This document shows, one piece after another, positions 3,830-61,079 of a DNA stretch of 64,000 nt. A program made the translations under genes and the position numbers. Within the stretch, counting starts at the first letter, position 1; the number at the start of each line of letters is the position of its first letter. The notes below the pieces were generated by a model, which saw only the letters and a list, made by a program, of their open reading frames with translations, was not told the origin of the DNA and searched no databases. The stretch spans positions 992,001-1,056,000 of the forward strand of contig QAIB01000001.1 in the NCBI GenBank assembly GCA_030418545.1, in the 5' to 3' direction. Origin of the DNA: Xenophilus aerolatus (lineage in GTDB: Bacteria; Pseudomonadota; Gammaproteobacteria; Burkholderiales; Burkholderiaceae_C).

Positions 3830-3884
3830 CAGAAAGCGCCCTGCAAGCCTGCCAAGTCGGTGCAGCAGCTATCAAAAATATAGC
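3830..3884 (-). repeat. GCTAT-N7-ATAGC element, copy 1 (reverse)
   Basis: Read on the minus strand from 3884 this is GCTATATTTTTGATAGC, then a GC-rich body, then a T-rich tail (GCTTTCTGTT) that ends against the GNAT stop codon. It matches the head and tail layout of six other copies in the window and is the only copy facing its upstream gene. Confidence 0.7.
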
Positions 3885-4111
3885 GGCGCGGAAGAACTCC
3901 GGCGGCGTCGCGTGCCGACTGTGCCGGGCCATCGCCTTGCCCGCGTGTGCGCGCTCGTCGGCAGCTCGCCGCCGCCCGGCGATGCAGCGGACGCTTTCGT
4001 CTATGCGAATCCTTAACAGTTCTCTACACGCTTCACAGAGGACAGCTTCCCACAACTGCTGCAAGTCTGGCGTGCTCGCTATGTTCAACGAGAGGTGGAG
4101 GCGCGAAGGCA

Positions 4112-4614
4112 GTGAAGATTCTCATCCACAGCTCGGTTTTCTACCCGGCTGTCGGCAACATCGCGAACCACACCCGCATGCTGTCCGCCGGGTTCGTACG
4201 GGCCGGCGACCAAGTCAAGGTGGTGACCCGACAGGCGCAGGACGACGCGCGAGCCCCTCGCACGCTGCCTCAATCGGCAACCGCACGATGGTCGTGCCCT
4301 CGATGGGCCCCGAAGGCTTCGGCATCGTCGCGCTCGAAGGCCCGGCCTGCGGGTGTCGCATGATCGTCTCGTAGGCCAGCGGCCTGCCGGAAGCTGTGGC
4401 CGGCCACGCGGACACTTTCTCCACGGGCGACCGGGTGGCGCTGCACCCACTGCTCGAACGCGCGCTGGACGAGGGCGAGCCCAGCACATCGGAGCGCGGT
4501 CTGTTCCTGGACCGCCACATGCGCCCGCATGTGGCCAGCCAGTACCTGGGCGTGTTCGAACGCGTCGTCGGCCCACGGTTTTCCCGGGGCGAACAGGCAG
4601 GGCAGCCTTGCTAG
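4112..4614 (+). pseudogene. Glycosyltransferase family 4 remnant (internal deletion, frameshift, nonsense codon)
   Basis: A GTG start at 4112, eleven bases after GGAGG-like sequence, opens a normal glycosyltransferase N-terminus (VKILIHSSVFYPAVGNIANH) for about 45 codons. The sequence then jumps frame to a typical GT4 C-terminal donor-binding region (VVPSMGPEGFGIVALEG) and is interrupted by an in-frame TAG at 4372 where the family usually has an Asp. It resumes with GLPEAVAGHADTFSTGDRVA and ends at 4614. The total is about 165 codons, against roughly 350-400 in the family, so the middle is missing. It was probably once part of an exopolysaccharide locus with the next gene. Confidence 0.8.
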
Positions 4615-5180
4615 AACGCGGCAGCATCGCCGGCCTGCGCCTGCCCGAGCGCACGCTGTGCCTCCCCAACACGACGGCCCGGGTTCGGATAGCGCAGCCA
4701 TCGGCAACTTCCTCGCCGAGCGGGGCGTGGGTGCGACCTTCTTCGTCGTTGGCAAGTGCGCCGAGCAGCGTCCCGACGCGCTGGCCGGCCTGCATGCGGC
4801 GGGCCACATCATCGGCAAGCACACCTACGACCACCCCGACATGCCCTACTACGTGGCCGGGGGGCGACGTTCGCGAGCAGATCATCCGCGCCGACGGCCT
4901 CATCCGCCGCGACAGCCGCGACGGCCGGGTCTTCCTGCGCGCGACCTACGGCAAGTGGTCGCCCGAAGTGGCCGACGACCGAACATCGAGCCACGCAGTT
5001 TGCTGGGCCACGTGGCCCCGTGTACTGGGAAGTGCCCGATATCAACTGCCACTGCTGGCGACTGGGCCAGTCGGTGGAGGCGGCCGAGCAATACATGGCG
5101 CAGTTCGAGCGCCATGGCAGGGGCATCGTGGTCGTGCCCGAATCCGATCCAAGCTGCTCCCGGCCTGGACGACGGCGGGT
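4605..5180 (+). pseudogene. Polysaccharide deacetylase (NodB-type) remnant with several frameshifts
   Basis: Fragments in all three frames assemble into one deacetylase. LPERTLCL is in one frame and DGPGSDSAAIGNFLAERG with GATFFVVGKCAEQRPDALAG and HTYDHPDMPYY in a second. GDVREQIIRADGLIRR with VFLRATYGKWSPEVADD returns to the first frame, and GPVYWEVPDINCHCWRLG lies in the third. The TFDDGPG metal motif is damaged to HDGPG, while HTYDH is kept. At least three frameshifts exclude a functional product. It follows the broken glycosyltransferase directly, and both look like one decayed polysaccharide unit. Confidence 0.8.
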
Positions 5181-5186
5181 TTCCAT

Positions 5187-5243
5187 AAGAAAAATGCCGC
5201 CGGCCCTTGCGGGGCGGGCGGCAGATGCTATGGAAAATATAGC
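5187..5243 (-). terminator. GCTAT...ATAGC element, copy 2, acting as terminator of the acyl-CoA operon
   Basis: On the minus strand the head GCTATATTTTCCATAGC (5243-5227) is followed by a strong GC hairpin (GCCGCC...GGCGGC, with GGGCC/CCGCC inner pairs) and then ATTTTTCTTA. It begins 16 bases after the stop of the acyl-CoA dehydrogenase gene and in the same direction, so this repeat copy also has the form of an intrinsic terminator. Confidence 0.75.
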
Positions 5244-5259
5244 AAGCCGACGGGGCAGC

Positions 5260-6531
5260 TCAGAAGCGCGTGACCGGCGGCGCGCTTTCGCGCTTGTCCG
5301 TCGAGTACTTGCCCAGCTCCCACTTGGCGATCGCGTTGCGGTGCACCTCGTCCGGGCCGTCGGCGAAGCGCAGCGTGCGAGCCTGCGCGTAGGCGTAGGC
5401 GAGCGGGAAGTCGTCGCACATGCCGCCGCCGCCATGGACCTGCATGGCCCAGTCGATCACCTGGCAGGCCATGCTGGGCGCCACCACCTTGATCATGGCG
5501 ATTTCGCTCTTGGCCACCTTGTTGCCGGCCACGTCCATCAGCCACGCGGCCTTGAGCGTGAGCAGGCGGGCCATGTCGATCTTGCAGCGCGCCTCGGCGA
5601 TGCGCTCCTGCGTCACGGTCTGCTGCGCCACCGTCTTGCCGAAGGCCACGCGCGAGGACGCGCGTCGGCACATCAGTTCGAGCGCGCGCTCGGCCAGCCC
5701 GATCAGGCGCATGCAATGGTGGATGCGACCGGGGCCGAGGCGGCCCTGGGCGATCTCGAAGCCGCGTCCCTCGCCCAGCAGGATGTCGGAGACCGGCACG
5801 CGCACATTCTCGAAGTACATCTCGACGTGGCCATGCGGCGCGTCGTCGTAGCCCATCACGTTGAGCGGGCGCACGATGCGGATGCCCTTGGCGTCGGCCG
5901 GCACCAGCACCATGCTCTGCTGCGAGTGCTTGGGGGCTTCAGGGTCGCTCTTGCCCATGGTGATGAACACCGCGCAGCGCGGATCGGCCGCACCGGAGAT
6001 CCACCACTTGTGGCCGTTGATGACGTACTCGTCACCCTGGCGCTCGATGCGGGTGCAGATGTTGGTCGCATCGCTCGAGGCGACTTCGGGCTCGGTCATC
6101 GCGAAAGCCGAGCGGATCTTGCCGTCGAGCAGCGGCTGCAGCCAGCGTTCGCGGTGCTCGTCGGTGCCGTAGCGGGCGATGGTTTCCATGTTGCCGGTGT
6201 CGGGCGCCGAGCAGTTGAAGACCTCCGAGGCCCATGGCACGCGGCCCATCAGCTCGGCCAGCGGTGCGTATTCCATGTTGGTCAGGCCGCCGCCCTTCTT
6301 CTTGGCGATCTCCGCCGTGTCGTTGGGCAGGAACAGGTTCCAGAGGTCCTGTGCACGCGCCTTTTCCTTCAGGCGCTCGATGACCTGGAGCGCGGACCAG
6401 CGCTTGCCCGCCGCCGTGTTGGCGGCCAGCTCGGCCGTGTACTCGGCTTCGGCCGGGAAGATGTGCTCGTCCATGAAGTCGCTCACGCGCTTCTGGAGCT
6501 CCTTGGTTTTGGCCGAAAAGTCGAAGTCCAT
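5260..6531 (-). CDS. Acyl-CoA dehydrogenase (ACAD10/11- or LvaC-like)
   Basis: This is a 423-residue FAD-dependent acyl-CoA dehydrogenase family protein. The family motifs [14 protein letters not shown] (about residue 155) and the C-terminal [13 protein letters not shown] region are present, and the length is normal. AGGAGACACC precedes the ATG and supports the start. It is the last gene of a minus-strand operon and lies 37 bases after an APH-fold kinase. That kinase/dehydrogenase pairing is also found fused in eukaryotic ACAD10/11 and as separate LvaA/LvaC proteins, where the pair removes a 4-hydroxyl group through a phosphorylated acyl-CoA. That role is inferred from context, not from residues seen here. 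Confidence 0.88.
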
Positions 6532-6568
6532 GGTGTCTCCTGGGGTGGGGTAGGGAGTGGGAAAGGCG

Positions 6569-7675
6569 TTACGCCTTCTGGGCGAACTGCCAGGCCATCG
6601 CGGCCATGGGCCGCGCGCCGCGCGCGGAAGCCACGGCCTGCTCGCTCGAGGCCGTGCCCGCCTCGACCCGCTTGGCGATGCCTTGCAGGATGGCGGCCAT
6701 GCGGAACAGGTTGTAGGCCTGGTAGAAGTTCCAGTCGGGCGCGAGCGCCTCGGGTGTGCTGATGCGGGTGCGCTCGCAGTAGCGGCGGATGTACTCGGCC
6801 TCGGTCGGGATGCCGAGCGAGGCGACGTCGACGCCACCGATGCCGCGCCCCGTCGTGGGCGGCATGTGCCACGACATGCAGTGGTAGCTGAAGTCGGCAA
6901 GCGGATGGCCCAGCGTCGACAGCTCCCAGTCGAGCACGGCGATGATGCGCGGCTCGGTCGCATGGAACATCACGTTGTCCAGGCGGTAGTCGCCGTGCAC
7001 GATCGAGACCTTGCTCTCGTCGCGCGCGCTGGCCGGCATGTGCGTGGGCAGCCAGTCGATCAGGCGCTCCATCTCCTCGATGGGCTGCGACAGTTCGCCG
7101 GCACCGTCGGCCGAGGCCTTGTACTGCTTGCTCCAGCGACCGATCTGCCGCTCGAAGTAGTTGCCGGGCTTGCCGTAGTCGGCCAGGCCGCGCGCGGCGA
7201 AGTCGACCGTGTGCAGGGCCGCGATGACGCGGTTCATCTCGTCGTAGTAGGCCGCGCGTTCGGCGTTGCTGAAGCCGGGCAGCGACTGGTCCCAGAGCAC
7301 GCGGCCTTCCATGCACTCCATGACGTAGAAGGCGCGGCCAATGACGGATTCGTCCTCGCACAGGCAGTACATGGCGGGCACGGGCACGTCGGTGCCGGCC
7401 AGGCCCTTCATGACCTTGTATTCGCGCTCGATGGCATGCGCGGAGGGCAGCAGCCTGGCGACCGGGCCTGGCTTGGCGCGCATCACGTAGCTGCGCTGCG
7501 GCGTGACCAGCTTGTAGGTGGGGTTCGACTGCCCGCCCTTGAACATCTCGACCGTCAGCGGGCCCTGGAAGCCATCGAGATGCGTGCTCAGCCAGCCGGC
7601 CAGCGCCTCGGTGTCGAAGGCATGCTGGGAGGAGACGGCGCGCGTGCCGATGAAGTTGCTGAAATCCTGCGTCAT
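6569..7675 (-). CDS. Aminoglycoside-phosphotransferase-fold kinase (LvaA / ACAD10-11 kinase type)
   Basis: This 368-residue protein has the APH/choline-kinase fold. The catalytic loop HGDYRLDNV (about residue 228) and the metal-binding aspartate in [11 protein letters not shown] (about residue 249) are intact, and the N-terminal nucleotide-binding region [10 protein letters not shown] is visible. ATG at 7675 ([10 protein letters not shown]) is preferred over an upstream in-frame ATG because homologues of this family start near there; the ribosome site is weak. In this gene order the likely substrate is a 4-hydroxyacyl-CoA rather than an antibiotic. The assignment rests on neighbours. Confidence 0.85.
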
Positions 7676-18540: not shown

Positions 18541-19506
18541 TCATTCTTCAGATGATAGTCGCGCGTCCAGGGCCGCGAAGAAGGCCGGCTCGGGTGCGAA
18601 CACGAGCGGCACGGCCAGCGCGTCGGGCGCCACCTGCCACAGCTTGCCAGCATCCTTTTCGGTGCAGATCAGGCGGTAAGGCCCACCAGACGGGCGCGAC
18701 CAGCTATCGAAATCATAGTGGTCGGGCAGTGGGATGCACTGCGCGGGCACCACCCCGCGCGCGCGCAGCATGTCGAAGAAGCGCTGCGGCTGCGCGATGC
18801 CGGCCAGCGCAATCACGTTCGGCTCGCGCGCGAGTTCGGCCAGCGGCACCCGGCGGCCGTCCCGTCCGACGGCGTGGTCGGCCAGCGCGCGCCGTGCCGT
18901 GAAGCCGGCGAAGGCCGGGCGCTCGCCCGTGTGGAGCACGATGTCGCAGGCGCGTGGCCAAGGCTCGCGCAGCGGCCCGGCGGGGAGCAGCCAGCCGTTG
19001 CCGACGCCCCGGTCGTCGAACACGCAGATCTCGACCTCGCGCCGCAGCGCCAGGTGCTGCAGACCGTCGTCGCTCACGATCACGCGCAGTTCGGGGTGGG
19101 CGGCCAGCAGGCGCCGCGCGGCGGCCACCCGGTCGCGGTCCACCACCACGGGCGCGCCGGTCGTGCGATGCACCAGCAGCGGCTCGTCGCCCACGTCGCG
19201 CGGGTCGCTGACGGCATGCACTTCGCGGCCGTCCTGCGTGCGGCGACCGTAACCGCGCGAGACCACGCCCACCGCCAGGCCGCGCGCCTGCAGATGACGC
19301 ACCACGGCCATCACCACGGGCGTCTTGCCGGCGCCCCCTGCGATGACATTGCCCACCACGACCACGGGCACGCCGACCCCGTGCGAGGTCTTCCAGCCAC
19401 GCCGATAGGCCAGGCTTCGCAGGGCGGCGATCGCGCGATAAAGGAGGGAGAACGGCCACAGCAGGCGAGCCAGCAGGCCGCGGTGCAACCAGGCGCGTGG
19501 CAGCAT
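18541..19506 (-). CDS. lpxK: Tetraacyldisaccharide 4'-kinase
   Basis: LpxK phosphorylates lipid A disaccharide at the inner membrane. The 321-residue protein has an N-terminal amphipathic/membrane segment ([20 protein letters not shown]), the P-loop [14 protein letters not shown] near residue 51, and the C-terminal [13 protein letters not shown] and [10 protein letters not shown] motifs. The stretch [16 protein letters not shown] is encoded by DNA that resembles the GCTAT...ATAGC element (see findings). It lies 23 bases downstream of exbD. ATG at 19506 is the likely start. Confidence 0.94.
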
Positions 19507-20921: not shown

Positions 20922-22244
20922 ATGAACGATTTCGAGCACGGTCGTGGCCTGCGGGCAGAGGCAGGCCCGCGCATCTGGGCTGTCGGCGCGCTGTGCCGCG
21001 CCGTGGCCGACGCGCTCGATGCGCGCTTCAATCCCGTCGCGGTCCAGGGCGAGATCTCCGGCTTCTCGCGCGCCGGCAGCGGGCACTGCTACTTCTCGCT
21101 CAAGGACGCCGCGGGCCAGCTGCGCTGCGCGATGTTCCGGCGTGCTGCGTCGCTGCTCGACTTCACACCGCGCGACGGCGACCAGGTCGAGGTGCGTGGC
21201 CGGCTCGCGGTCTACGAGCCGCGCGGCGATCTGCAACTGGTGGTCGAAAGCCTGCGGCGCGCCGGGCAGGGCGCCCTGTTCGAGCAGTTCATGCAGCGCA
21301 AGGCCAAGCTGGAAGCGGAAGGCCTGTTCGACCCCGCACGCAAGCGCAGCCTGCCCACCATGCCCCGGCGCATCGGCCTGGTCACCTCCCGCGGCGCGGC
21401 AGCGCTGCACGACGTCGTGACCGCGCTACGCCGCCGGGTGCCGCACATCCCGGTGGTGCTCGCGCCGGCGGCGGTGCAGGGCGCCCAGGCGCCTGCCGAA
21501 CTGGTGCAGGCGCTGGAGTCGCTGTACGTGCTCTCGCCACCGGTCGACCTCATCCTGCTGGTGCGTGGCGGCGGCTCCATCGAGGACCTGTGGGCCTTCA
21601 ACGACGAGACGCTGGCGCGCACCATCGTGCGCAGCCCGGTGCCGGTGGTGGCCGGTGTCGGGCACGAGACCGACTTCACCATCGCCGATTTCTGCGCCGA
21701 TGTGCGCGCCCCCACGCCCACCGCGGCGGCCGAGCTCGCGTCCGCGCCGCGCGAGCTGTGGCTCGGTGCGCTGGAGCTGATCGAGGAGCGGCTGCGCGAC
21801 GCCATCGGCGGCCGGCTCGACGCGCAGGGCCAGCGCCTGGACCTCGCGGCGGGGCGTCTGGGCCGTCCGTCCGCCATGGTGGCGCGCCAGCGCATCGAGC
21901 TCAGCCATGCGGCCCAGCGCATGCACCATGCGGCGCTATCGAAACTGGAGCGCGCCGCGCAGGCGCAGCGAGCGCTCCAGGCCGATTGGCATGCCAGGTT
22001 CGAGGCGGCCTTGTCGCAGCGCCACGACCGGCTCTCGCGTGCGGCGCTGCGTCTGGAACTGCTCGACCCGGCCCTCGTGCTGCAACGTGGCTATGCCTGG
22101 CTGGCCGACGCCGACGGGGTGCCCATCACCCGCGCCGCGCAGTTGGAGCCGGGGCAGCCGGTGCGCGCCGAGCTGTCCGACGGTGAAGCCTTCCTGACGG
22201 TCGATGCGGTGGGCACAAGCCCACGTCCGACGCGACCCGAATGA
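20922..22244 (+). CDS. xseA: Exodeoxyribonuclease VII large subunit
   Basis: XseA is the catalytic subunit of the single-strand-specific exonuclease VII. The 440-residue protein has an N-terminal OB-fold ([22 protein letters not shown]), the catalytic-domain motifs [13 protein letters not shown] and [13 protein letters not shown], and [13 protein letters not shown], followed by a coiled-coil-rich C-terminus. GGAG seven bases before the ATG at 20922 supports this start over longer forms. The small subunit xseB is not adjacent. sodB follows after 47 bases. Confidence 0.96.
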
Positions 22245-27096: not shown

Positions 27097-27155
27097 GCTA
27101 TCGATTCGATAGCGGGTCGCGCCCGGTGGACGGGCGCTGCAGGCATATTTCGCTT
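27097..27155 (+). repeat. GCTAT-N7-ATAGC element, copy 3
   Basis: The head GCTATCGATTCGATAGC is a perfect palindrome. It is followed by the body GGGTCGCGCCCGGTGGACGG and GCGCTGCAGGC, and the tail ATATTTCGCTT. It lies downstream of the clpA terminator and directly upstream of the cardiolipin synthase gene, in the same direction as both. Confidence 0.75.
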
Positions 27156-27167
27156 GGAAACTTCGAC

Positions 27168-32214: not shown

Positions 32215-32451
32215 ATGTTCCCGTTTCCCCGATCGATTCGCCCGGCCGCGCTGGCTGTCGCGCTGTGCACCCTGGCCCTCGGCGGCTGCGTGGTCGCGCC
32301 GGTAGCGCCCGCGTACGTGGCGCCCCCGGGCGTCGCCTACATCGCCCCGACGTACCCGGCGCCTGGCGTCGGCTTCGTGTGGGCCTACCACGCGCACTAC
32401 GGCTGGGGTTGGCACCATCCCGTTTACGGCTGGCACCGCGGCTGGCGCTGA
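32215..32451 (+). CDS. Small lipoprotein, Pro/Tyr/Trp-rich
   Basis: This is a 78-residue predicted lipoprotein. The signal peptide ends in the lipobox LGGC (Cys near residue 25). The mature part is VAPVAPAYVAPPGVAYIAP followed by an aromatic, His-rich tail (HAHYGWGWHHPVYGWHRGW). Such short YXWXXP-like outer-membrane lipoproteins are common in betaproteobacteria, and their role is unknown. The ribosome site AAGGAG (32198-32203) supports the ATG at 32215. Element copy 4 begins 12 bases after the stop. Confidence 0.75.
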   Translation: MFPFPRSIRPAALAVALCTLALGGCVVAPVAPAYVAPPGVAYIAPTYPAPGVGFVWAYHAHYGWGWHHPVYGWHRGWR

Positions 32452-32463
32452 GCGGGGCAGGCT

Positions 32464-32521
32464 GCTATCGAGTCCATAGCGGCCAGCGCAGACGTGGCGG
32501 GCGCTCCAGGCCCTTTTGTCT
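32464..32521 (+). repeat. GCTAT-N7-ATAGC element, copy 4
   Basis: The head GCTATCGAGTCCATAGC is followed by a GC-rich body (GGCCAGCGCAGACGTGGCGG, GCGCTCCAGG) and the T-rich tail CCCTTTTGTCT. It lies directly behind the small lipoprotein gene, in the same orientation. Confidence 0.7.
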
Positions 32522-32591
32522 CCGAAGATGCTTCTCGCCGCGTTTTTGAGTACGGGGCGACCGATTGCCGCCCGCCGCGCGTTGAAGCTGC

Positions 32592-36857: not shown

Positions 36858-36916
36858 GCTACGAAATCGATAGCTGCCCGCGCCCGGCGGACGGGCACTG
36901 CAGGCCGATTTGGCAT
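36858..36916 (+). repeat. GCTAT-N7-ATAGC element, copy 5
   Basis: The head GCTACGAAATCGATAGC has one mismatch in the left arm. It is followed by the body TGCCCGCGCCCGGCGGACGG and GCACTGCAGGC, then the tail CGATTTGGCATT. The body is nearly identical to copy 3. It starts one base after the DUF1501 stop, and its tail provides the TTGGCA of the next promoter. Confidence 0.75.
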
Positions 36917-36938
36917 TGGACGCCAACGCGCGTAGGCT
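36910..36938 (+). promoter_or_regulatory. Possible promoter of the arr homologue, -35 inside element copy 5
   Basis: TTGGCA at 36910-36915 and TAGGCT at 36933-36938 are 17 bases apart, 34 bases before the ATG. The -35 hexamer lies in the tail of the repeat element. Confidence 0.4.
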
Positions 36939-36971: not shown

Positions 36972-37367
36972 ATGGCTGTTCCCGACACCGGCCCCTTCTT
37001 CCACGGCACGCGGGCCGACCTGCAGGTGGGCGACCTGCTCACCGCCGGCTTCCGCTCGAATTACGACGGCCGCGTGGTCATGAACCACATCTACTTCACC
37101 GCCTGGCCAAAGGGCGCCGGGCTCGCGGCCGAGATGGCGAAGGGCGACGGCCGTGGCCGCGTCTACATCGTCGAGCCCACCGGCCCGTACGAGGACGACC
37201 CCAACGTCACCGACAAGAAATTCCCCGGCAACCCCACGCGCTCGTACCGCAGCCGCGAGCCGCTGCGCATCGTGGGCGAACTCGATGCGTGGGAGCTCTT
37301 CGACGAGGAGTACATCCGGCAGCTGAAGGAGCGGGTGAGGGTGGGCATGGGCGAGATCATCAACTGA
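36972..37367 (+). CDS. arr: Arr-type NAD+ rifampin ADP-ribosyltransferase homologue
   Basis: Arr enzymes inactivate rifamycins by ADP-ribosylation. The 131-residue protein matches them along its length: GPFFHGTRADLQVGDLLTAG at the N-terminus with the NAD-binding His, MNHIYFTA near residue 37, VYIVEPTGPYEDDPNVTDKK near residue 64, and FPGNPTRSYRSREPLRIVGE near residue 84. AGGAGCGACGCAC precedes the ATG. Its GC content fits the chromosome. It lies 245 bases upstream of an attC-like site, but its own 3' end carries none. Activity on rifampin is inferred from family. Confidence 0.87.
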   Translation: MAVPDTGPFFHGTRADLQVGDLLTAGFRSNYDGRVVMNHIYFTAWPKGAGLAAEMAKGDGRGRVYIVEPTGPYEDDPNVTDKKFPGNPTRSYRSREPLRIVGELDAWELFDEEYIRQLKERVRVGMGEIIN

Positions 37368-49791: not shown

Positions 49792-51171
49792 ATGACCCCA
49801 CGTAACTCCATCGCCATCCGGCTCGCACTCATGTATGCGGCGGTGGCGCTGGTCGTGTTCTCGCTGGTCGGGGTGGCGCTGCACCAAGTGCTCAGCCGCG
49901 AGCTGGCGCGCCACCAGCACGAGCAGGTCCAAGGACGGCTGGAAGACGTGCGCTACCTGCTCGTGCACGGCCGCTCGCCGCAGTTGGCGATCCGCGCCAA
50001 GGACAAGATCGCCGCGCTGGTCAGCAACGGCGGCGAGACGCGCTTCTGGATGTGGAGCGACGACCCGGCCTTCCGCTGGGGCGAGGGCGCAGAGGCGATC
50101 GCCGCGCACATGCGTACCCACTCGGGCGTGGTCGACCTGCCGGTGGGACCGGGCGGCAGCTCGATGGCCGTGCTGTCGGTCGATGTGCCCGCCAACGACA
50201 TCCGCGCGGGCCTGCAGCTCATCGCGGCCGTGAGCGAGGCGTCGTTCTCGCGCACCCTGCGCGCCTTCGAGACTGCGCTCGCCCTGTTGACGGTGGTCGG
50301 TGTTCTCAGCGTCGGTCTGCTGGGCTTCTGGATCGCGCGGCTGGGCCTGCGGCCCGTGCAGCAGCTGTCGGAGGACGCGCAACGCATCGGCCCCGACAAC
50401 CGTGGCCAGCGCTTGGAACTGCCCGACCTGCCGCTGGAACTGTCGCAGCTGGGCGGCTCCTTCAACGCGGCGCTGGACCGGCTCGATGCGGCCTACCGGC
50501 AACTGGAGACCTTCAACGCCGACGTGGCGCACGAGCTGCGCACGCCGCTCGCCAACCTCATCGGCCAGACCCAGGTCACCCTGGCGCGCGAGCGCGACGC
50601 CCCCGAGCTGCGCGAGGTGCTGCAGTCCAACCTGGAGGAGCTCGAGCGCCTGCGCGCCATCGTGGCCGACATGCTGTTCCTGGCGCGGGCGGAGCAGGGC
50701 GAACGGGCGCACCGGCTCACCGAGTCGTCGCTGGCGCGGGAGGTCGACAAGACCGTGGAGTTCTTCGACGTGCTGCTCGAGGACGCGGGCATGCAGGTCG
50801 AGGTGGTGGGCGACGCCGTGGCGCCCATCGAGACCTCGCTCTTCCGGCGCGCGCTGAGCAACCTGCTGCAGAACGCCATCCAGCATTCGAAGGGCGGCGG
50901 CACCATCGTCGCCCATGTCGAGCGGCAGGCCGGCCGCGCCGTGGTGAGCTTCTCCAACCCCAGCGACCCCATTCCCGCCGAACAGCTCGCGCGCCTGTTC
51001 GACCGCTTCTACCGCGTCGACGCCGCACGCCACAACAGCGGCGAGAACCACGGCCTGGGCCTGGCAATCGTGAAGGCGGTGGCGGCGATGCACGGGGGCA
51101 CGGTGTTCGCGCGTTCCGGCGGGGGGGTGACGACGATCGGGTTCAGTGTCGGATTGCTGTCAATAACATAG
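49792..51171 (+). CDS. Heavy-metal-type sensor histidine kinase
   Basis: This 459-residue kinase has an N-terminal membrane helix (IRLALMYAAVALVVFSLVGV), a periplasmic sensor (about residues 30-155), a second helix (ALALLTVVGVLSVGLLGFWI) and a HAMP domain. The phosphorylation motif is FNADVAHELRTPLANLIGQT, and the ATPase domain has NLLQNAIQHSK and GLGLAIVKAV. ATG at 49792 was chosen because the upstream open frame runs through the inverted-repeat element. The last codons (L-S-I-T-stop) are provided by element copy 6. Confidence 0.92.
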   Translation: MTPRNSIAIRLALMYAAVALVVFSLVGVALHQVLSRELARHQHEQVQGRLEDVRYLLVHGRSPQLAIRAKDKIAALVSNGGETRFWMWSDDPAFRWGEGAEAIAAHMRTHSGVVDLPVGPGGSSMAVLSVDVPANDIRAGLQLIAAVSEASFSRTLRAFETALALLTVVGVLSVGLLGFWIARLGLRPVQQLSEDAQRIGPDNRGQRLELPDLPLELSQLGGSFNAALDRLDAAYRQLETFNADVAHELRTPLANLIGQTQVTLARERDAPELREVLQSNLEELERLRAIVADMLFLARAEQGERAHRLTESSLAREVDKTVEFFDVLLEDAGMQVEVVGDAVAPIETSLFRRALSNLLQNAIQHSKGGGTIVAHVERQAGRAVVSFSNPSDPIPAEQLARLFDRFYRVDAARHNSGENHGLGLAIVKAVAAMHGGTVFARSGGGVTTIGFSVGLLSIT

Positions 51172-51205
51172 CAGGCTGCGCGGATGGGACGGGTGCTGTG
51201 GGCGG
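51156..51205 (+). repeat. GCTAT-N7-ATAGC element, copy 6 (diverged), carries a kinase stop codon
   Basis: The head GCTGTCAATAACATAGC starts inside the kinase gene and provides Leu-Ser-Ile-Thr and the TAG stop (51169-51171). A GC-rich body (AGGCTGCGCGGATGGGACGG, GTGCTGTGGGC) follows. The stop codon of the convergent DUF6708 gene (51215-51217) lies just past its end. The body is more diverged than in copies 3, 4, 5 and 7. Confidence 0.6.
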
Positions 51206-51214
51206 ATTCGACGC

Positions 51215-52336
51215 TCAAACTTTCGCCACCCAACGCAGCGGCTCCTCGGGGCCAATGCCACTCTCGCGCCGCTTCTGGCCACAGTCGCCGTTCCACTCCT
51301 CGGGGAAGGTGGGCCAGTAGCACAGGCGTTCGGCCAGGGTGTGCAGCGGCGCCCACAACACATTCAAGCCGAAGTTCGTGGCGGTGGCCGCCGATGTGCC
51401 TTGGCCCACCATCTTGTCGCGCACCAGGGAGCCATGCATCACGGTCTCTTCCATGTGTTGGCCGGGGCTGCTGAAGCCTTTGCGCAGCCAGTTGTATTCG
51501 GCAGGTTTGGGCACCGCGTCCATGCCTTCTTCCATGAAGGTGCGGATGTACTGCCACAGGGCTTCACCGCTGTCGTTGGGTCCGACCCAGATCACATCTT
51601 CGCCCTTGCGTTCCGGATCAGTCGGATCAATAGGTGGCCAATAGAGAAGCAGGTTGCTGTCGATGCCGGCAGACTGCAAGCGCTCTCGCCGGGCATCCTC
51701 GCTGCTTGCCAGTTCTTCGGCAGTCCATGACTTGGGCGGCGCCCATTTCACATGGGCCCTGACGCGATCCCAGTCGAGGACGGCGTTGCCACCGTACTTC
51801 TTGGGGCGCAGCACGTACACCCTGCGGGTGGTGCGATTGAAGCGGTAGCGGGCGCGTAGGGCGGTGAAGAAGGCGGGGGCGAAGATGTGGGGCCAGAAGA
51901 GAAAGTGGACCAAGGCATATGCGCCAGCGAGCGTGGCAAAAAACAAGCCTAATACAAGATGCCAGTCACGAAGGTGTGATGGGCCATCGATCAATAGCAG
52001 AGAGATGAATCCCGCAGGCAACCCAAGCATCAAAACCGCTAGAACGGCAATCATGAAGGTTAATGACCGCTTGTTCTCCTCCGCATTACTTTGCTCAATG
52101 AAGTGCTCATTGAAGTCAAACAGCGTACGACCGATTAAAAGGGAGGGGCGTGCAATCTCCTGCTCCTTGAGCTTCTCCTTGCGCGTGGGTTTGGGGTCGT
52201 TCACACCATACGTACACGGTCCTTCATGAATGCCGCACAGCCTCGTGTACTCGTTGATGTCGGCGTAGTAGCCAACGGCCTTCGCCGTACCGCCTCGACG
52301 CTTTTCAAACTGATAGCCGGATTCATTGAGGAACAT
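51215..52336 (-). CDS. DUF6708-like membrane protein of a T6SS vgrG island
   Basis: This 373-residue protein has two central membrane helices (TFMIAVLAVLMLGLPAGFIS and WHLVLGLFFATLAGAYALVH) and a C-terminal domain with RFNRTTRRVYVLRPKKYGGN and VLDWDRVRAHVKW, the pattern of DUF6708 proteins often encoded next to T6SS effectors in Burkholderiales. GC content is lower than the window average, with several AT-rich codons, which suggests horizontal origin. It lies six bases after the broken VasX-like gene. A role as immunity or accessory protein is inferred from position. Confidence 0.72.
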   Translation of the reverse strand: MFLNESGYQFEKRRGGTAKAVGYYADINEYTRLCGIHEGPCTYGVNDPKPTRKEKLKEQEIARPSLLIGRTLFDFNEHFIEQSNAEENKRSLTFMIAVLAVLMLGLPAGFISLLLIDGPSHLRDWHLVLGLFFATLAGAYALVHFLFWPHIFAPAFFTALRARYRFNRTTRRVYVLRPKKYGGNAVLDWDRVRAHVKWAPPKSWTAEELASSEDARRERLQSAGIDSNLLLYWPPIDPTDPERKGEDVIWVGPNDSGEALWQYIRTFMEEGMDAVPKPAEYNWLRKGFSSPGQHMEETVMHGSLVRDKMVGQGTSAATATNFGLNVLWAPLHTLAERLCYWPTFPEEWNGDCGQKRRESGIGPEEPLRWVAKV

Positions 52337-56342: not shown

Positions 56343-57278
56343 TTATGAGCCTCCGGTTGCCGCCCGGTGCCGGTCGATGAAGCGATCGACTGCCGCGGTG
56401 TACCCACCTGCCATGCCCAGCTCCGCATTGATCTGCCCATGGCCGAGCTGCAGCGGCAGCACCTCGGCACTCCCACCCACCGCCCGGAACGCCTGCGCGA
56501 AGCGCTGCGACTGGCCGCAGGCATCGTCGCGGCGTGGCGCGCTGCACACCAGCAGCATCGGCGGGCCACCGGGCGCGAGGCGTGCGGTGGGCGATATCTG
56601 TGCCCACAGCGCCGGGTCCGAGCCGAAGGCGCGGTCGTACAGCGGCAGGTGGCGCCGCTGCATCAGGGCCACGGTATCGAGCGCCGCACTGTCCAGGGCG
56701 ACGGTGGCCCGCCAGGGCAGGACGCCCTGGGCGCGGGCCAGCTCGGGCGCGGCGCTCAGCAGCGCGACCAGGTGTGCACCCGCGGAGTGCCCCATGAGGA
56801 CGACCTGCCGCGGGTCGGCGCCCCATGTCGCGGCCTGCGCCTGCACCAGGGCCAGCGCGCGTGCGATGTCCTCGGCCTGCTGCAGCACGCCGACCTGCGG
56901 CACCAGGCGGTAGCCGACCGAGACGAAGACGAAGCCCCGTTCGCGCACCCAGTGGTCGATCTTCGCGTCGACGACCGAGGCGGCGGCCCTGTCGCCGTAC
57001 ATCCAGCCGCCGCCATGGACCATGACCAGCACCGGCGCCTGTCGCGCCTGGGCCGGGCGATAGACGTCGAGGCGCTGGGACGGGTCCGGCCCGTAGGGCA
57101 GGCCGGCATCGCGCAGCACCCCCGCGGGGACGACAGGTGTGCCGACCTCGAAGGTGCGGCCGCGCCAGCGCGTTGTTCCCTGCGCATGCGGCGCGGCGCA
57201 CAGCCCGGCGAGCAGCAGGCAGGCCAGCGTTGCGGTGATGCGCAGGGCGCGCATCCGCATGTTCGTGGTCGGGTTCAT
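56343..57278 (-). CDS. Secreted alpha/beta hydrolase (carboxylesterase, HSL/BD-FAE-like)
   Basis: This 311-residue hydrolase has a signal peptide (LRITATLACLLLAGLCAAPH). The oxyanion-hole motif is MVHGGGWMYGDRAAAS near residue 82 and the nucleophile elbow is GHSAGAHLVALL near residue 163. The acid probably lies near residue 253 and the His in LQLGHGQINAELG near residue 280. It should be a periplasmic or secreted esterase. Its start overlaps the stop of the desaturase-like gene by ATGA, and GCAGGA precedes the ATG. Confidence 0.88.
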   Translation of the reverse strand: MNPTTNMRMRALRITATLACLLLAGLCAAPHAQGTTRWRGRTFEVGTPVVPAGVLRDAGLPYGPDPSQRLDVYRPAQARQAPVLVMVHGGGWMYGDRAAASVVDAKIDHWVRERGFVFVSVGYRLVPQVGVLQQAEDIARALALVQAQAATWGADPRQVVLMGHSAGAHLVALLSAAPELARAQGVLPWRATVALDSAALDTVALMQRRHLPLYDRAFGSDPALWAQISPTARLAPGGPPMLLVCSAPRRDDACGQSQRFAQAFRAVGGSAEVLPLQLGHGQINAELGMAGGYTAAVDRFIDRHRAATGGS

Positions 57279-57904
57279 GGTCCTGCCTCCTCGATGCGAA
57301 CGGTAGGTGGTGGTGCCGAAGTCCGGCCGCCAGGCGGACCGAAGACCATCGCCAGCCGCGCGCGCCCGCCCTCGGCCTGCCGCAGGTCGCGCGCCAGGTT
57401 CACCCACTCGTGCATGGCGATGCGCAAGGGGTTGTGGGTGCGGAGCGGCGTCGTCAGCCCGTAGCGCGGCGGCACGTCGTCGCGCAGGTCCACGAAGGTG
57501 CCGAAGAGGCGGTCGAACACGATCAGCACGCCGCCATAGTTGCAGTCCAGGTATTCGGCGTTCGATGCATGGTGCACCTTGTGGTGGGTGGGCGTGTTGA
57601 GCACCCATTCGAGCGCGCCCAGGCGCGGCAGCCAGGGCGCATGCAGCCAGAACTGGTAAAGCAGGTTGATGCCCAGGGCCGCGAACACGGCCGCGGGCGA
57701 AAAGCCCAGCCATACCAGCGGCGCGAAGAAGAGACCCGTGCCGGTGAGCTTGCCCGTCCATCCGAGCCGCAAAGCCGCGGCCAGGGTCACGAAGGTCTGG
57801 ACGAGGCCCTCGGCCAGCGCGGCCGTCAGCACCAGCAAGGGCAGGGCGAGCAGCCATGGCGCGAGCTCCGGGCCGAGCGCGTGGCGGAGCGTGTCGAAGG
57901 GCAT
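57275..57904 (-). CDS. Sterol desaturase / fatty-acid hydroxylase family protein, internally shortened
   Basis: This 209-residue membrane protein has the C-terminal half of the family (FFAPLVWLGFSPAAVFAALG, LEWVLNTPTHHKVHHASNAE, LIVFDRLFGTFVDLR) with the last HxxHH di-iron motif. The first two histidine motifs (HxxxH and the earlier HxxHH), normally about 100 residues upstream, are absent. The N-terminus resembles the normal start of the family but joins directly to LAAALRLGWTGKLTG. An in-frame internal deletion is the simplest reading. Without the other ligands the di-iron site cannot form, so activity is doubtful. Confidence 0.75.
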   Translation of the reverse strand: MPFDTLRHALGPELAPWLLALPLLVLTAALAEGLVQTFVTLAAALRLGWTGKLTGTGLFFAPLVWLGFSPAAVFAALGINLLYQFWLHAPWLPRLGALEWVLNTPTHHKVHHASNAEYLDCNYGGVLIVFDRLFGTFVDLRDDVPPRYGLTTPLRTHNPLRIAMHEWVNLARDLRQAEGGRARLAMVFGPPGGRTSAPPPTVRIEEAGP

Positions 57905-57918
57905 GGTTGCGCTTCTCC

Positions 57919-58221
57919 TCAGCCGCCGGCGGCGCGGCGGCCGCGCCGGCTGGCGGCGTAGGCCTCGATCTGTTCCATGGTCACGGCGCCGGTGTGCGCG
58001 CTGTCGATGGCCTCGAAGTTGCGGTAGACCCAAGGCATCCTGCCCTTCGCTTCGTCGCGCGTCAGGCGGCCGTCGACATTGGCGTCGGCGGCGCCGAATC
58101 GCTTGCGCAACTCGGTTCGCATCTGGTCTTGGCGGGCGGGGTCGGGCGCCTGGGCCCGCGCAGGGAGCATTGCGCCAGCCAGCAAGGCAAGCAGGGCGTA
58201 TCGAAGCAGGAGGAGTCTCAT
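57919..58221 (-). CDS. Secreted EF-hand domain protein
   Basis: This 100-residue protein has a signal peptide (LLLLRYALLALLAGAMLPARA) and a calcium-binding EF-hand loop ADANVDGRLTRDEA near residue 45. A weaker second loop-like segment follows (IDSAHTGAVTMEQIEAYA). The C-terminus is basic (SRRGRRAAGG). It sits between a secreted low-complexity protein and the desaturase-like gene with short gaps, suggesting one envelope-related operon. Confidence 0.82.
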   Translation of the reverse strand: MRLLLLRYALLALLAGAMLPARAQAPDPARQDQMRTELRKRFGAADANVDGRLTRDEAKGRMPWVYRNFEAIDSAHTGAVTMEQIEAYAASRRGRRAAGG

Positions 58222-58231
58222 CGGGAGTTCC

Positions 58232-58774
58232 TCAGCGGCAGGCGATCACGGCACCGGCGGCGTTGTAGCAGGTTGCGCTACGTGTCAGGCCGGTGGCGCT
58301 GTCGTACGAGCTGCTGGTCTGCACGCTGTTGCCGGTGACGTTGCTGGTGGCGGTGGTGCTGCGGCTCTGGCTGAGGTTGCCGGCGGCGTCGCGGGTGGCG
58401 CTGCCGCTGCTTTGCACGCTGCCCTTGGCGTTGGCGGCGTTCAGGCCGCTCTGGTGGCTGGCCGAGCCGTCGGCGTTGACGCGGGTGCTGCCGGCGCGCG
58501 CGCCCATCCCGCCGTTCGGGCCCGTCACGCGGGCGCCGCTGGCGACGATGCCGTGGCCCTGGCCATCGGTGCCGAGGGCACGGCCGCGCACCAGGTTGCC
58601 GCCGTTGGCACCCTGGCGGCGCACCATGGCGCCGGAAGACACACCGCCTTCGGCATTCGTGCCGCGGTAGCGCAGGGGACCGGCCTCGGCGCCGGCGGTG
58701 ACGAAGGAGGCTGCCAGGGCGACGGCACCGAGGGCGGCGCAGCGCAGCATGAGGGGATGAGCTTGAATCGACAT
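58232..58774 (-). CDS. Secreted Gly/Ser/Asn-rich protein of unknown function
   Basis: This 180-residue protein has a signal peptide (MLRCAALGAVALAASFVTAG). The mature part is built from loose repeats rich in Gly, Ala, Ser and Asn (GANGGNLVRGRALGTDGQGH, GSVQSSGSATRDAAGNLSQS) and ends with a cysteine pair (SATCYNAAGAVIAC) likely to form a disulfide. No catalytic domain is recognised. AAGGAC precedes the ATG at 58774. It is divergent from a response regulator, with TGTCAT boxes between, so it is a likely regulatory target. Confidence 0.7.
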   Translation of the reverse strand: MSIQAHPLMLRCAALGAVALAASFVTAGAEAGPLRYRGTNAEGGVSSGAMVRRQGANGGNLVRGRALGTDGQGHGIVASGARVTGPNGGMGARAGSTRVNADGSASHQSGLNAANAKGSVQSSGSATRDAAGNLSQSRSTTATSNVTGNSVQTSSSYDSATGLTRSATCYNAAGAVIACR

Positions 58775-58892
58775 GGTCGTGTCCTTGCAGTGGAGGTGGA
58801 TCGGTGGTGGCACGGCGGGGGCTGCCGTGCCTTGACTGTGGGCGCGAGGTGTGAGCGAACGATGCCGGCGTACGGGCGCTCGATGACGATCC

Positions 58893-58927
58893 ATGACACG
58901 GCGCTGCGCCCTGTCATCGTTTGTCAT
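58893..58927. promoter_or_regulatory. Cluster of TGTCAT half-sites between divergent operons
   Basis: TGTCAT occurs at 58912-58917 and 58922-58927, exactly ten bases apart in direct orientation, and its complement ATGACA occurs at 58893-58898. Ten-base direct half-sites are the usual binding geometry of OmpR-family regulators, and such a regulator is encoded 54 bases downstream. Confidence 0.5.
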
Positions 58928-58980
58928 GATTTCGCGCGCCGGGCGGCGGCCGTGCGCCGGGCGCTCGCTACGATCGCGCC

Positions 58981-59700
58981 ATGCCCGAGCCGCTCGCCCG
59001 CATCCTCATCGCCGACGACGAGGCCGACTTGCGTGCGCTGCTGGAGCGCTACCTGGGCGACCAGGGCTACGCGGTGCGCACCGTGGAGGGCGCCGCGCCG
59101 CTGGACCGGCTGCTGGCGCGCGAGCGCTTCGACGTGCTGGTGCTCGACGTCATGATGCCGGGCGAGGACGGCCTGGCCGTGTGCCGCCGCCTGCGCGCGC
59201 AGGGCGAGACCATTCCGATCGTGATGCTCACCGCACGCGGCGACCCGGTGGACCGCATCGTTGGCCTCGAGATGGGTGCCGACGACTACCTGCCCAAGCC
59301 CTTCAACCCGCGCGAGCTGCTCGCGCGCATCCAGGCCCTGGTGCGGCGCCAGCGCATGCTGGGCGCCCACGCGGGGCCGATGGCCGAGGACGGCGAGCTG
59401 CGCTTCGGCGAGCACGTGCTGCACCTCGCCCGGCGCACGCTGCGCAGGGGCGATGCCGAGGTGCCGCTGACCACGGGCGAGTTCGGCCTGCTCGCGGCGT
59501 TCGCGCAGAACGCCGGCCGCCCCCTTGGGCGCGAGCGCCTCATCGAACTGGCGCGCGGGCGCGACCACGAGGCCACCGACCGCAGCATCGACGTGCAGGT
59601 CATGCGCCTGCGCAAGCTGATCGAGGCCGACCCGGCGCAACCGCGCCACATCCGCACCGTGTGGGGAGTCGGCTACGTCTTCGTGCCCGAGCCGGAATGA
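58981..59700 (+). CDS. OmpR-family response regulator
   Basis: This 239-residue regulator has a receiver domain (RILIADDEADLRALLERYLG, acceptor Asp near residue 56 in VLVLDVMMPGEDGLAVCRRL, DDYLPKPFNPRELLARIQAL) and a C-terminal winged helix (VPLTTGEFGLLAAFAQNAGR, RSIDVQVMRLRKLIEADPAQ, TVWGVGYVFVPEPE). It resembles OmpR itself in the effector end. Its stop overlaps the kinase start by ATGA. Probable targets include the divergent secreted-protein operon. Confidence 0.95.
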   Translation: MPEPLARILIADDEADLRALLERYLGDQGYAVRTVEGAAPLDRLLARERFDVLVLDVMMPGEDGLAVCRRLRAQGETIPIVMLTARGDPVDRIVGLEMGADDYLPKPFNPRELLARIQALVRRQRMLGAHAGPMAEDGELRFGEHVLHLARRTLRRGDAEVPLTTGEFGLLAAFAQNAGRPLGRERLIELARGRDHEATDRSIDVQVMRLRKLIEADPAQPRHIRTVWGVGYVFVPEPE

Positions 59701-61034
59701 ACTGGTGCCCGCGCAGCCTCTTCGGGCGCAACGCGCTCTTCATCGTCGCGCTGATCGTGCTGGGCCAGCTGGGCGGCGCGCTGCTGCTGCGGCAGATGGT
59801 GGTCAAGCCGCGCCTGGACCAGGCGGCCGACAGCGTGGCACGCAACGTGGCGGCGATCCGCGCCGGGCTGGTGGCGGTGCCGCCGGGGCAGCGGCAGGCC
59901 TTCGTCGATGCCTTCAATGCGCGGGCGCGGGCGACCGATGGGGGTCGGGACGCGTCGGCCCCGGCGGTGCTGCGGCCGCTGCTCACGCCGCTGGAACGCG
60001 GCTTCGTGCGGCGGGTGTCGGCACGCCTGGCGGGCCAAGGCGTCGACCTCGTCTGGCGCCGCGACCAGGGGGGCAGCCTGGCCCTGCGCCTGCCGATGGA
60101 GGGCGGCGAGCACTGGGTGGTGCTGCCCGGCCTGCTGCCGGAGCGCGAGTTCACCGGCGCCTGGATGGCGGTCAGCGGCGTCAGCGTGGTGCTGGCGATC
60201 GTCGGCGCACTGTGGCTGCAGCGGCGACTCGACCGGCCGTTGGCGCGCGTGGTCGCGGCCGCCCGGACGCTGGCCGGCGGGCAGGCGCCCGCGCCCCTGC
60301 CGGAAGACGGCCCGACCGAGATCGCCACGGTCAGCCGCAGCTTCAACCAGCTCGTCGCCAGTCTGCAGCAGGCCGAGCGCGAGCGGGCGTTGATGCTGGC
60401 AGGTCTGTCGCACGACCTGCGCACGCCGCTCACCAAGCTGCGGCTGGGGGTGGAGATCCTGCACGGCCGCAGCGAGCCCGAGCTGATGGCCAGCATGACG
60501 CGCAGCATCGAAGAGCTCGATGCCATCGTCGGGCAGTTCCTGGATTTCGCGCGCAGCGACGACGCAGAGATGCCTGTGCCGGTGGACCTGGATGCGCTCG
60601 CGCGGGCCGTGCAGGCCGCGGCGGCCGATCACGGCCGGACGCTGCGCGTCGAGGCGACGGCCGGCCCGCTCCCGGTCGCCGCCCGGCCGAAGGCGCTGCG
60701 CCGCGTGCTCGACAACCTGGTCGAGAACGCCTTTCGCCACGGGAGGCCGCCGGTCGTGCTGCGCACCGCGCGCGGGGCCGCGTGGGTGTGGATCGAGGTC
60801 GAGGACCGCGGCCCGGGCATCGACCTGGCGCAAGCCGAGCTGATGAAGCAACCCTTCCGGCGCGCTGGCGACGCGCGCAGCGGCGCCGCGGGGGCCGGGC
60901 TGGGACTGGCGATCGCGGACCGGATCGTGCGCGGCCACGGGGGCCGCTTCGAGCTGCTGCCGGCGGTGGAGGGGGGCTTGCGGGCGCGCGTCAGCCTGCC
61001 GCTCGGCCTGGACGCGCCGCTATCAAAACAATAG
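59697..61034 (+). CDS. EnvZ-like sensor histidine kinase
   Basis: This 445-residue kinase has a first membrane helix (RNALFIVALIVLGQLGGALL), a periplasmic part (about residues 35-150), a second helix (WMAVSGVSVVLAIVGALWLQ) and HAMP. The H-box is LMLAGLSHDLRTPLTKLRLG (His near residue 240), and the ATPase domain has NLVENAFRHG, DRGPGID and AGLGLAIADR. The last codons (L-S-K-Q-stop) come from element copy 7, in the same phase as in the other kinase of this window. It overlaps the regulator gene by ATGA. Confidence 0.94.
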   Translation: MNWCPRSLFGRNALFIVALIVLGQLGGALLLRQMVVKPRLDQAADSVARNVAAIRAGLVAVPPGQRQAFVDAFNARARATDGGRDASAPAVLRPLLTPLERGFVRRVSARLAGQGVDLVWRRDQGGSLALRLPMEGGEHWVVLPGLLPEREFTGAWMAVSGVSVVLAIVGALWLQRRLDRPLARVVAAARTLAGGQAPAPLPEDGPTEIATVSRSFNQLVASLQQAERERALMLAGLSHDLRTPLTKLRLGVEILHGRSEPELMASMTRSIEELDAIVGQFLDFARSDDAEMPVPVDLDALARAVQAAAADHGRTLRVEATAGPLPVAARPKALRRVLDNLVENAFRHGRPPVVLRTARGAAWVWIEVEDRGPGIDLAQAELMKQPFRRAGDARSGAAGAGLGLAIADRIVRGHGGRFELLPAVEGGLRARVSLPLGLDAPLSKQ

Positions 61035-61079
61035 CTGCCGGCGCAGGATCGGCGGGCGCCGCAGGCTCAAAACGCTTGA
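61019..61079 (+). repeat. GCTAT-N7-ATAGC element, copy 7, carries a kinase stop codon
   Basis: The head GCTATCAAAACAATAGC (61019-61035) contains the TAG stop (61032-61034) of the EnvZ-like kinase. The body TGCCGGCGCAGGATCGGCGG, GCGCCGCAGG and the tail CTCAAAACGCTTGAA follow. It is the copy closest in form to the repeat I recall from other Comamonadaceae. Confidence 0.75.

Follow-up and report, generated by a model that had tools for sequence, protein, structure and literature searches.

We found that a 63-bp composite motif, represented by seven similar elements in a 64-kb window of Xenophilus sp. E41, a member of the Comamonadaceae (the whole stretch of DNA analysed, 64,000 nucleotides), occurs in about 600 copies per genome by extrapolation and is under constraint between its own genome and that of a relative, G013. 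We tentatively favour its interpretation as a double-stranded DNA recognition tag that is read in trans, likeliest by a putative DNA-uptake apparatus.

The motif opens with a 17-bp dyad head, GCTAT-N7-ATAGC. Its body contains a second inverted repeat, GCGCCCG/CGGGCGC, and is followed by ATTT and CTTGAAA boxes. All seven copies claimed in the first-pass annotation were found at the places given there (Table 1). The claimed head is exact in five of them, but the copies at 36858 and 51156 each carry one change in the left arm. An alignment of the seven with 36 further copies spans some 63 columns with hardly a gap, so that the unit extends a few bases past the ends first assigned to it. Conserved columns are dispersed across these positions (column table), with no short core of about 9-11 bp. 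A 63-column model, R1, was built from 43 sequences (41 exact-head copies plus two others, with all seven window copies included). The search therefore favours head-bearing copies, and genome-wide and control counts weigh more than recovery of the seven. It also revealed a copy on lpxK codons that was missing from the earlier list, as well as a match at 1450..1497 that may be chance or a remnant, because orthologues score no better there. The element had no family in Rfam when the window and nine loci were searched. DUF1010 was considered as a translation of the motif, but none of the four open frames that cross copies matched it; a zf-RING-like match, itself weak (E 0.082), was the one hit among them.

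Table 1. Motif copies, weaker matches and a host gene in the 64-kb window
Feature	Position	Strand	Score (bits)	Context
Weak motif match	1450..1497	+	22.8	Within pterin-binding enzyme gene 933-1829; one of the 127 copies
Motif copy, weak	3827..3884	-	23.1	Overlaps stop of GNAT-family gene 3350-3829 (+), opposing direction
Motif copy	5178..5243	-	35.3	16 bases past stop of acyl-CoA dehydrogenase-like gene 5260-6531 (-)
lpxK, tetraacyldisaccharide 4'-kinase	18541..19506	-		Gene hosting copy 18668..18718
Motif copy	18668..18718	-	34.4	On lpxK codons, residues 262-279 (0-based), gene's strand
Weak motif match	21949..21987	+	20.2	Under the cut-off for the 127 copies
Motif copy	27097..27161	+	62.7	82 bases past clpA stop; next called gene 6 bases on
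Motif copy	32464..32527	+	51.8	12 bases past called 78-aa ORF 32215-32451 (no match in NCBIfam)
Motif copy	36858..36919	+	55.3	1 base past stop of DUF1501 gene
Motif copy	51156..51220	+	36.8	Includes stop of heavy-metal-type sensor kinase gene (end 51171)
Motif copy	61019..61081	+	48.8	Includes stop of EnvZ-like sensor kinase gene (end 61034)

Across the genome we counted 206 occurrences of the exact 17-base head, compared with one of a reversed control pattern. R1 detected 127 copies in 1.2 Mb of the 5.84-Mb genome at a cut-off of about 22.8 bits, with lower-scoring matches, overlapping rows and the L016 row left out of the counts. Gene context was taken from our own caller (amino-acid frequencies converted to a codon prior, then a dicodon model) rather than from annotation. 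The window copies at 5187, 32464, 36858, 51156 and 61019 contain a stop codon or begin within about 16 bases past one, as had been claimed for five copies, and 3' end enrichment holds when the profile search and distance tabulation are extended to 1.2 Mb. Density per kb was 2.19 in convergent gaps, eight times that in divergent gaps (0.27), compared with 0.74 in tandem gaps and 0.033 in coding DNA; within tandem gaps, the median distance was 15 bases to a gene 3' end versus 28 to a 5' end. Ninety-one copies lie between genes and 36 within called genes, 23 of the latter being antisense to the host gene. A single reading frame accommodates 9 of the 13 sense and 19 of the 23 antisense intragenic copies. 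There was no strong strand or regional pattern across the 1.2 Mb: replication strand bias was weak only (52 copies on the plus strand and 75 on the minus strand), and genomic islands gave no signal as motif-free zones.

Enrichment at 3' ends, strongest in convergent gaps, is what speaks for an RNA element belonging to the 3' ends of mRNAs (an intrinsic terminator or decay block) spread by insertion past stop codons, together with the folding of the copies at 5187 (z -4.3 versus shuffles, the best among window copies) and 27097 (z -2.8). The remaining five of the seven window copies, however, fold at z -1.2 to +0.6. The orientation bias reported for six of the seven disappears outside the window, where copies in tandem gaps run 30 with and 26 against the gene, and the tail contains TTTT in only 43 of the 127 copies and TTTTT in 25. 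Base pairs of the head do not covary within the genome, its inner pairs falling below shuffle, and we rejected an RNA or single-stranded DNA hairpin for the head; covariation of the body stem pairs was likewise not seen within the genome, and these data give no support to a body hairpin. Between genera, body pairs do change together, largely owing to one genome, G033. Some intergenic copies, such as 5187-5243, could function as intrinsic terminators, but the motif differs from them in lacking an orientation bias and a consistent U run and in having intragenic copies; it does not present the GC stem with an immediate U run facing the gene. Orientation blindness and the intragenic and antisense copies thus exclude termination as a general role, and the suggested protection from mRNA decay falls with it on the same evidence. 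We regard the RNA element as very improbable. Gene 3' ends seem to be where the motif is tolerated best.

Selection, which the first-pass annotation had offered beside insertion, is supported by constraint at individual sites. Site comparison required both flanks to align and a fair score of the site's own, leaving 33 of the 127 sites for G008, 18 for G013, 5 for G002 and 2 for G012. Fifteen sites could be aligned in G013 as well as in G008. At these, the fraction of consensus bases kept in high-information columns was 0.954 in G013 versus 0.723 in G008, retention being higher in G013 at 13 sites and lower at none (Wilcoxon p 0.0015). Low-information columns of the same sites gave 0.818 and 0.789. 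Fourfold sites (0.787 and 0.791) indicate that the two relatives are equally distant. The motif is therefore constrained between its own genome and G013, and its retention there but not in the equally distant G008 indicates that whatever maintains the motif has been lost in some lineages. Constraint was also seen in the few-site comparisons with G002 and G012. Gene conversion between copies is not needed, variable columns changing at about the neutral rate.

We followed site sharing across genera at two genes, lpxK and truB, applying R1 to 22 of 30 lpxK loci and 23 of 30 truB loci. Both copies overlie conserved codons and alter gene length little or not at all. The lpxK site scored 32.3-44.9 bits in G000, G002, G012 and G013, and in other genera 28.7 (G016), 15.4 (G017) and 12.0 bits (G015, noise level by score); the same codons are 1-2 aa shorter in motif-poor genomes of the same genus. 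The truB site scored 47.6-54.0 bits in these four genomes and 24.8 (G017), 15.1 (G016) and 13.9 bits (G015) elsewhere, and truB length is equal in motif-free genomes of the genus. With two coding sites common to genera and on conserved codons, a target-specific mobile element, as suggested in the first-pass annotation, is not the explanation that fits best. Insertion (or deletion) of an entire copy does happen as well, since the copy at 1111312 lies within about 26 residues that are missing from G001. At the pccA site, 35 of the 63 bases in motif-free G001 still agree with the consensus, so that some motif-free sequences may descend from former copies instead of preserving the ancestral state.

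The motif is nearly confined to Comamonadaceae and, in a survey that covered 36 genomes of the family, is patchy even within one genus: scanning 400 kb of the same-genus G001 gave nothing above 13.5 bits. An order-wide R1 scan of 250 genomes (which may or may not include Bordetella) yielded at least 20 matches in four of the seven listed family members and one weak match each in two of the remaining genomes. G033, with 139 matches, uses another dialect, in which GCCGGCG/CGCCGGC replaces GCGCCCG/CGGGCGC in all four copies read. Repeats of the BRE type (Hot et al. 2011) were described, in the portions of PMC3110155 covered, from Bordetella and several Comamonadaceae as mostly intergenic with some copies wholly in CDS, about 90 bp long (partial copies 40-60), in tandem arrays and at 1-29 copies per genome. 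The family and the mixture of intergenic and some coding copies are common to both. By contrast, our motif is 63 bp long, is nearly absent from the scan outside the listed family genomes and has a smallest copy-to-copy gap of 943 bp, which rules out tandem arrays. Compared by description rather than sequence, the motif is unlikely to be BRE.

Could a non-autonomous REP-type repeat have been spread by a single chromosomal Y1/HUH transposase gene and become mostly fixed? The gene concerned matches the NCBIfam REP-associated tyrosine transposase below the family cut-off. A motif copy adjoins it in G000, G002, G012 and G013 (E <= 1e-6) and, on the opposite side, in G023 (E 4.8e-6), and all five matches with E < 1e-4 among 21 transposase loci adjoin the gene. 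Flanking copies thus occur in four of five motif-rich genomes of the genus and in G023; G022, with its 80 matches, showed none. The sequence TCTGACCCC that forms the gene's own end is absent from the 1.2 Mb, possible whole-copy gains or losses were noted at 915448 and 1111312, and the weak strand bias is a lagging-strand excess. Against this, motif-rich G033 has no Y1 match, copies in G008 decay though the transposase gene looks intact, and the lpxK and truB copies sit on conserved codons at the same sites in other genera. As a predictor of the motif the transposase failed, being present in 46 of 60 genomes searched. Excerpts of PMC8266576 define a REP as a palindrome of 20-50 nt preceded by a tetranucleotide, which is usually GTAG. 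Our motif resembles REP/REPIN elements with RAYT (TnpA-REP) in its high copy number, palindromic parts and Y1 gene with some adjoining copies, but it is longer, 36 of its 127 copies are intragenic, its head pairs do not covary, its copies are unclustered, and the column table displays no palindrome after a GTAG-type tag. We consider a REP-type origin improbable.

A site bound by a chromosomal protein of the host, with a role in nucleoid organisation, replication restart or recombination, selected by the host at about one per 10 kb and lost with the protein in some lineages, would accommodate several of these observations: dyad-like arms that do not covary, individual-site constraint that is lost in G008, both orientations with coding sites, and few copies within 1 kb of each other (one such gap observed versus 12.3 expected). 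Spacing is otherwise random, however (CV 0.96 versus 0.99), no strong strand or region pattern exists, and several hundred long sites, patchy within a genus, are much for host selection alone. We know of no host protein that fits the motif, and judge this explanation unlikely, though less so than a REP-type origin.

For a recognition tag, we infer three things: double-stranded DNA is the target of the constraint, the motif has a reader that acts in trans, and the function of that reader is DNA uptake. The 63-bp motif would be read on double-stranded DNA by a trans-acting DNA-binding machine, likeliest the uptake apparatus of natural transformation. Motif-bearing alleles would be taken up and recombined more often, holding the motif near consensus. 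It would be kept at any tolerant site, in either orientation, be it a gene 3' end, a loop or even conserved codons; its dialect would shift between genera, and it would decay in any lineage whose reader is lost or altered. To our knowledge, no uptake sequence is as long as 63 bp.

The motif shares with the DUS of Neisseriaceae and the USS of Pasteurellaceae, as described in the covered parts of PMC3630211, a copy number in the hundreds to thousands, intergenic and intragenic copies (here on both strands and in tolerated frames), inverted pairs at terminators, dialects and absence from some relatives. It differs in that a single unit has built-in inverted repeats and in its length, known uptake sequences measuring 9-11 bp (PMC4212676, in part). 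As the motif lacks such a short core, we do not file it as a member. In G000, a ComEC match lies in an open frame of 882 aa that no stop interrupts. Motif-free genomes, and G008 with its decaying motif, have ComEC just the same, so that it fails to separate motif-rich from motif-free genomes and competence genes by themselves do not follow the motif. The covered parts of PMC4212676 (2014) term natural transformation in Verminephrobacter eiseniae, of the Comamonadaceae, sequence specific, report that Acidovorax temperans takes up DNA of its own species alone, and do not name any motif. In that study A. facilis was transformed too, and A. defluvii and A. delafieldii gave no transformants. Our literature searches found neither a description of it nor a DNA uptake sequence linked with Comamonadaceae; genus names of the family are absent from PMC3733652 and PMC12306157, and a genus-name search of PMC2817692 gave one passage, on Thauera.

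It is conceivable, though doubtful at present, that Comamonadaceae possess a putative uptake system with a 63-bp recognition sequence that molecular drive has written into about 600 places per genome, conserved codons of essential enzymes included; decay in sister species would then mark loss or change of uptake specificity, and dialects would act as sexual barriers. If true, this would add a further, very different case to the genome-wide uptake tags reported for Neisseriaceae and Pasteurellaceae in the literature covered. As selective uptake has been reported in Comamonadaceae (PMC4212676, parts covered), the question of the recognised sequence is directly testable. Even if the reader serves something other than uptake, some activity constrains about 600 extrapolated sites per genome.

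The seven copies in the window described by the first-pass annotation were all present where it had placed them. The window covers C11:992001-1056000 of the own genome (G000). A pattern search of the 5.84-Mb genome for the exact head, GCTAT-N7-ATAGC, found 206 places, compared with one for the reversed pattern, and 43 copies, including those seven, could be aligned almost without gaps over about 63 columns. From these 43 we built a sequence-only profile (R1) and searched contig C11:1-800,000, the window and the fetched locus L016, followed by C11:800,001-1,200,000. After discarding matches below about 23 bits and overlapping ones, we retained 127 copies, nine inside the window; scaling from the 127 suggests ~600 per genome. 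In 400 kb of the same-genus genome G001, the top R1 match reached just 13.5 bits. Rfam searches of the window and loci returned no family for the motif, and no description of it was found in our literature search. The beta-proteobacterial repeat element BRE, compared by description only, differs from it in length, arrangement and range in the passages available (PMC3110155).

Column statistics from the 127 copies revealed near-invariant GCTAT and ATAGC arms (T5 0.83, A13 0.85, other arm positions at least 0.95), an A/T block at positions 8-10, GCGC at 23-26, CGGGCGCT at 35-42, and further conserved columns at G46, C48, TT 52-53, C57 and AA 62-63. Positions 27-28 read CC or AG/AA in roughly equal shares, so that about every second copy is unable to form a full GCGCCCG/CGGGCGC stem. 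In the head, positions lying inside the arms paired below shuffle (0.28 vs 0.39 for 6-12, for example), and no body pair within the genome was clearly above shuffling. When 27 copies from seven genera were aligned, without gaps over 63 columns, both sides of body pairs changed together (15 cells, 0 of 500 shuffles), largely because four of four copies from the relative G033 read GCCGGCG/CGCCGGC. Our reading is that the motif is a putative dyad recognised as double-stranded DNA and occurring in dialects, although it may also act as a hairpin.

According to our own gene caller, 56 of the 127 copies lie in tandem gaps (30 pointing with the genes, 26 against), 27 in convergent gaps, eight in divergent gaps and the other 36 within genes, 13 of them sense and 23 antisense. 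Copy density per kb of element-free sequence was 2.19 in convergent, 0.74 in tandem and 0.27 in divergent gaps, and 0.033 per kb in coding sequence. Tandem-gap copies were closer to a 3' end in 35 cases and to a 5' end in 21. As a raw count, a stop codon fell -25 to +40 bases from an edge in 68 of 127 copies. Spacings below 1 kb were observed once vs 12.3 expected, to which gaps between genes may contribute; beyond that scale copies are randomly spaced. C11:411112-480257 is a 69-kb stretch without a copy above the cut-off and with normal GC and coding score. The fetched locus L004 has two glycine riboswitch aptamers, one at 54.1 bits and one at 31 bits, slightly short of the gathering score; a copy (1451-1517, minus strand) sits on their strand ~23 bases further downstream, at the place expected for an expression platform. 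In the window, a rifampin ADP-ribosyltransferase (Arr) family gene (36972-37367, 161.5 bits) follows a motif copy.

Gene-internal copies mostly share one frame per orientation (9 of 13 sense, 19 of 23 antisense). The lpxK site scored 34.4 R1 bits in the own genome (G000), 32.4, 32.3 and 44.9 in the same-genus G002, G013 and G012, 28.7, 15.4 and 12.0 in the other relatives G016, G017 and G015, and 11.3 in the same-genus G008; an unrelated place in G018 also gave 12.0, so by score G015 and G008 do not rise above noise. Motif-poor or motif-free same-genus genomes (G001, G003-G007, G009-G011) carry homologous lpxK codons at this site but are 1-2 amino acids shorter there, and G008 equals the motif-bearing form in length; thus the motif bearers did not gain a whole 51-60-base unit at this site, barring a compensating loss of as much DNA. 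The region also aligns with a solved LpxK structure, with a 2-residue gap. The truB motif scored 47.6-54.0 bits in G000, G002, G012 and G013, and 24.8, 15.1 and 13.9 in G017, G016 and G015; in G001 and G003-G011 the gene is of equal length with the motif absent, and E. coli-type TruB in PDB is 4 residues shorter. Identity between G000-type and G008 truB is only 76%, vs 92% coding identity in the genes compared, which suggests allele exchange or replacement. In pccA, the own sequence scored 56 and that of G001 2 on a simple matrix; where they differ, the own base is the consensus at 16 positions and the G001 base at 5. As 35 of 63 positions in G001 still match the consensus, its sequence may be a motif remnant. 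Two copies count against overlay: that in an M20 peptidase (1111312) falls within ~26 residues missing in G001, and that in NDH (303801) covers 6 residues missing in the nearest solved relative.

Motif-bearing genes and their positions
Feature	Coordinates	Sequence	Profile or locus
lpxK copy	18668-18718	window	R1
truB	1173879-1174808	G000:C11	L089

G008 and G013 are equally distant from the own genome at fourfold sites (0.791 and 0.787). Over 15 sites aligned in both, consensus was kept in high-information columns at 0.954 in G013 vs 0.723 in G008, with G013 higher at 13 sites and lower at none (p 0.0015); low-information columns gave 0.818 vs 0.789 (p 0.13). The sites had been picked for good G000 matches, which lowers every other genome alike. 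The pattern was found in 7 genic and 8 intergenic sites, and G002 (5 sites, 0.904) and G012 (2 sites, 0.973) side with G013. Copies are thus maintained one by one in G000 and G013, whereas those of G008 are decaying. At 915448, a stretch of 69 bases is missing from G008 and the first head bases remain, which looks like a deletion.

Three 8-kb stretches of Xenophilus sp. E41 (NZ_QPIB01000001.1) are 100% identical to the own contig, and Xenophilus belongs to the Comamonadaceae. Among 60 genomes surveyed (counts at E <= 0.001), five of 14 in the genus had at least 86 matches, three had 1-12 and six none; 12 of 22 other family genomes had matches (1 to at least 86) and 10 none; one of 24 from other families had a single weak match. 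An order-wide draw left 224 of 250 genomes without a match; four of the seven family genomes listed had at least 20 matches and three none, and among the matches listed two genomes of other families had one weak match each. Among the holders are Xenophilus sp. E41, Comamonadaceae bacterium ALPHA2B and two further MAGs. A Diaphorobacter sp. HDW4A plasmid matched at 34.0 bits, and Rhodoferax antarcticus weakly (E 0.03). A phage search gave no motif match; in 21 viral contigs (L230-L250) the head and the first part of the body occur without mismatch, and L230 has three R1 matches. Plasmid NC_009651.1 carries a copy (L311:1504-1558; 19.2 bits, E 2.8e-6 in 3.7 kb) within an integron gene cassette annotated DUF1010, flanked by aadB and a YciI-family gene. 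On plasmid records, the DUF1010 match accounted for all 20 matches listed of 77, a hint that the cassette originated from a Comamonadaceae genome.

A REP-type repeat mobilized by a Y1 transposase would be compatible with the motif copy found beside the Y1 gene in four motif-rich same-genus genomes and the relative G023. However, lpxK and truB show old common sites also away from Y1, G033 has 139 motif matches without a Y1 match, G008 has the Y1 gene while its copies decay, and the motif does not carry the tag of the REP/RAYT family. Its placement, partly inside genes, and its link to the transposase are ambiguous with respect to that family. The single Y1 gene of the own genome scored 68.1 bits as NCBIfam REP-associated tyrosine transposase (cut-off 80) and adjoins what we take, from its translation, to be gltB. 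In the majority of the loci L016 and L131-L150, TGTCCC(C) and (T)CTGACCC(C) ends come after the Y1 gene; the own 1.2 Mb contain no TCTGACCCC.

Cumulatively, orientation-blind placement, tolerance of coding sequence, site-by-site retention, dialects and lineage-wide loss point to a reader that would act in trans on DNA and keep motif copies. This reader could be a DNA uptake system, with the motif behaving like an uptake sequence. Verminephrobacter and Acidovorax temperans are likewise Comamonadaceae. Selective transformation is reported for the former and own-species preference for the latter, and the passages on that selective transformation give no recognition sequence (PMC4212676). Uptake sequences show such behaviour in the passages available (PMC3630211; see also PMC2346458 and PMC2397512); the motif behaves like DUS/USS but differs in size, and we do not file it as a member. 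The presence of ComEC does not follow motif count (52 of the 60 genomes have it), so the predicted difference would lie in a putative receptor. In the motif-rich G016, the ComEC match (C1:1836740-1837544) is in three pieces, reflecting frame errors or a broken gene. Our preferred reading, a tentative one, is that the motif may serve selective DNA uptake.
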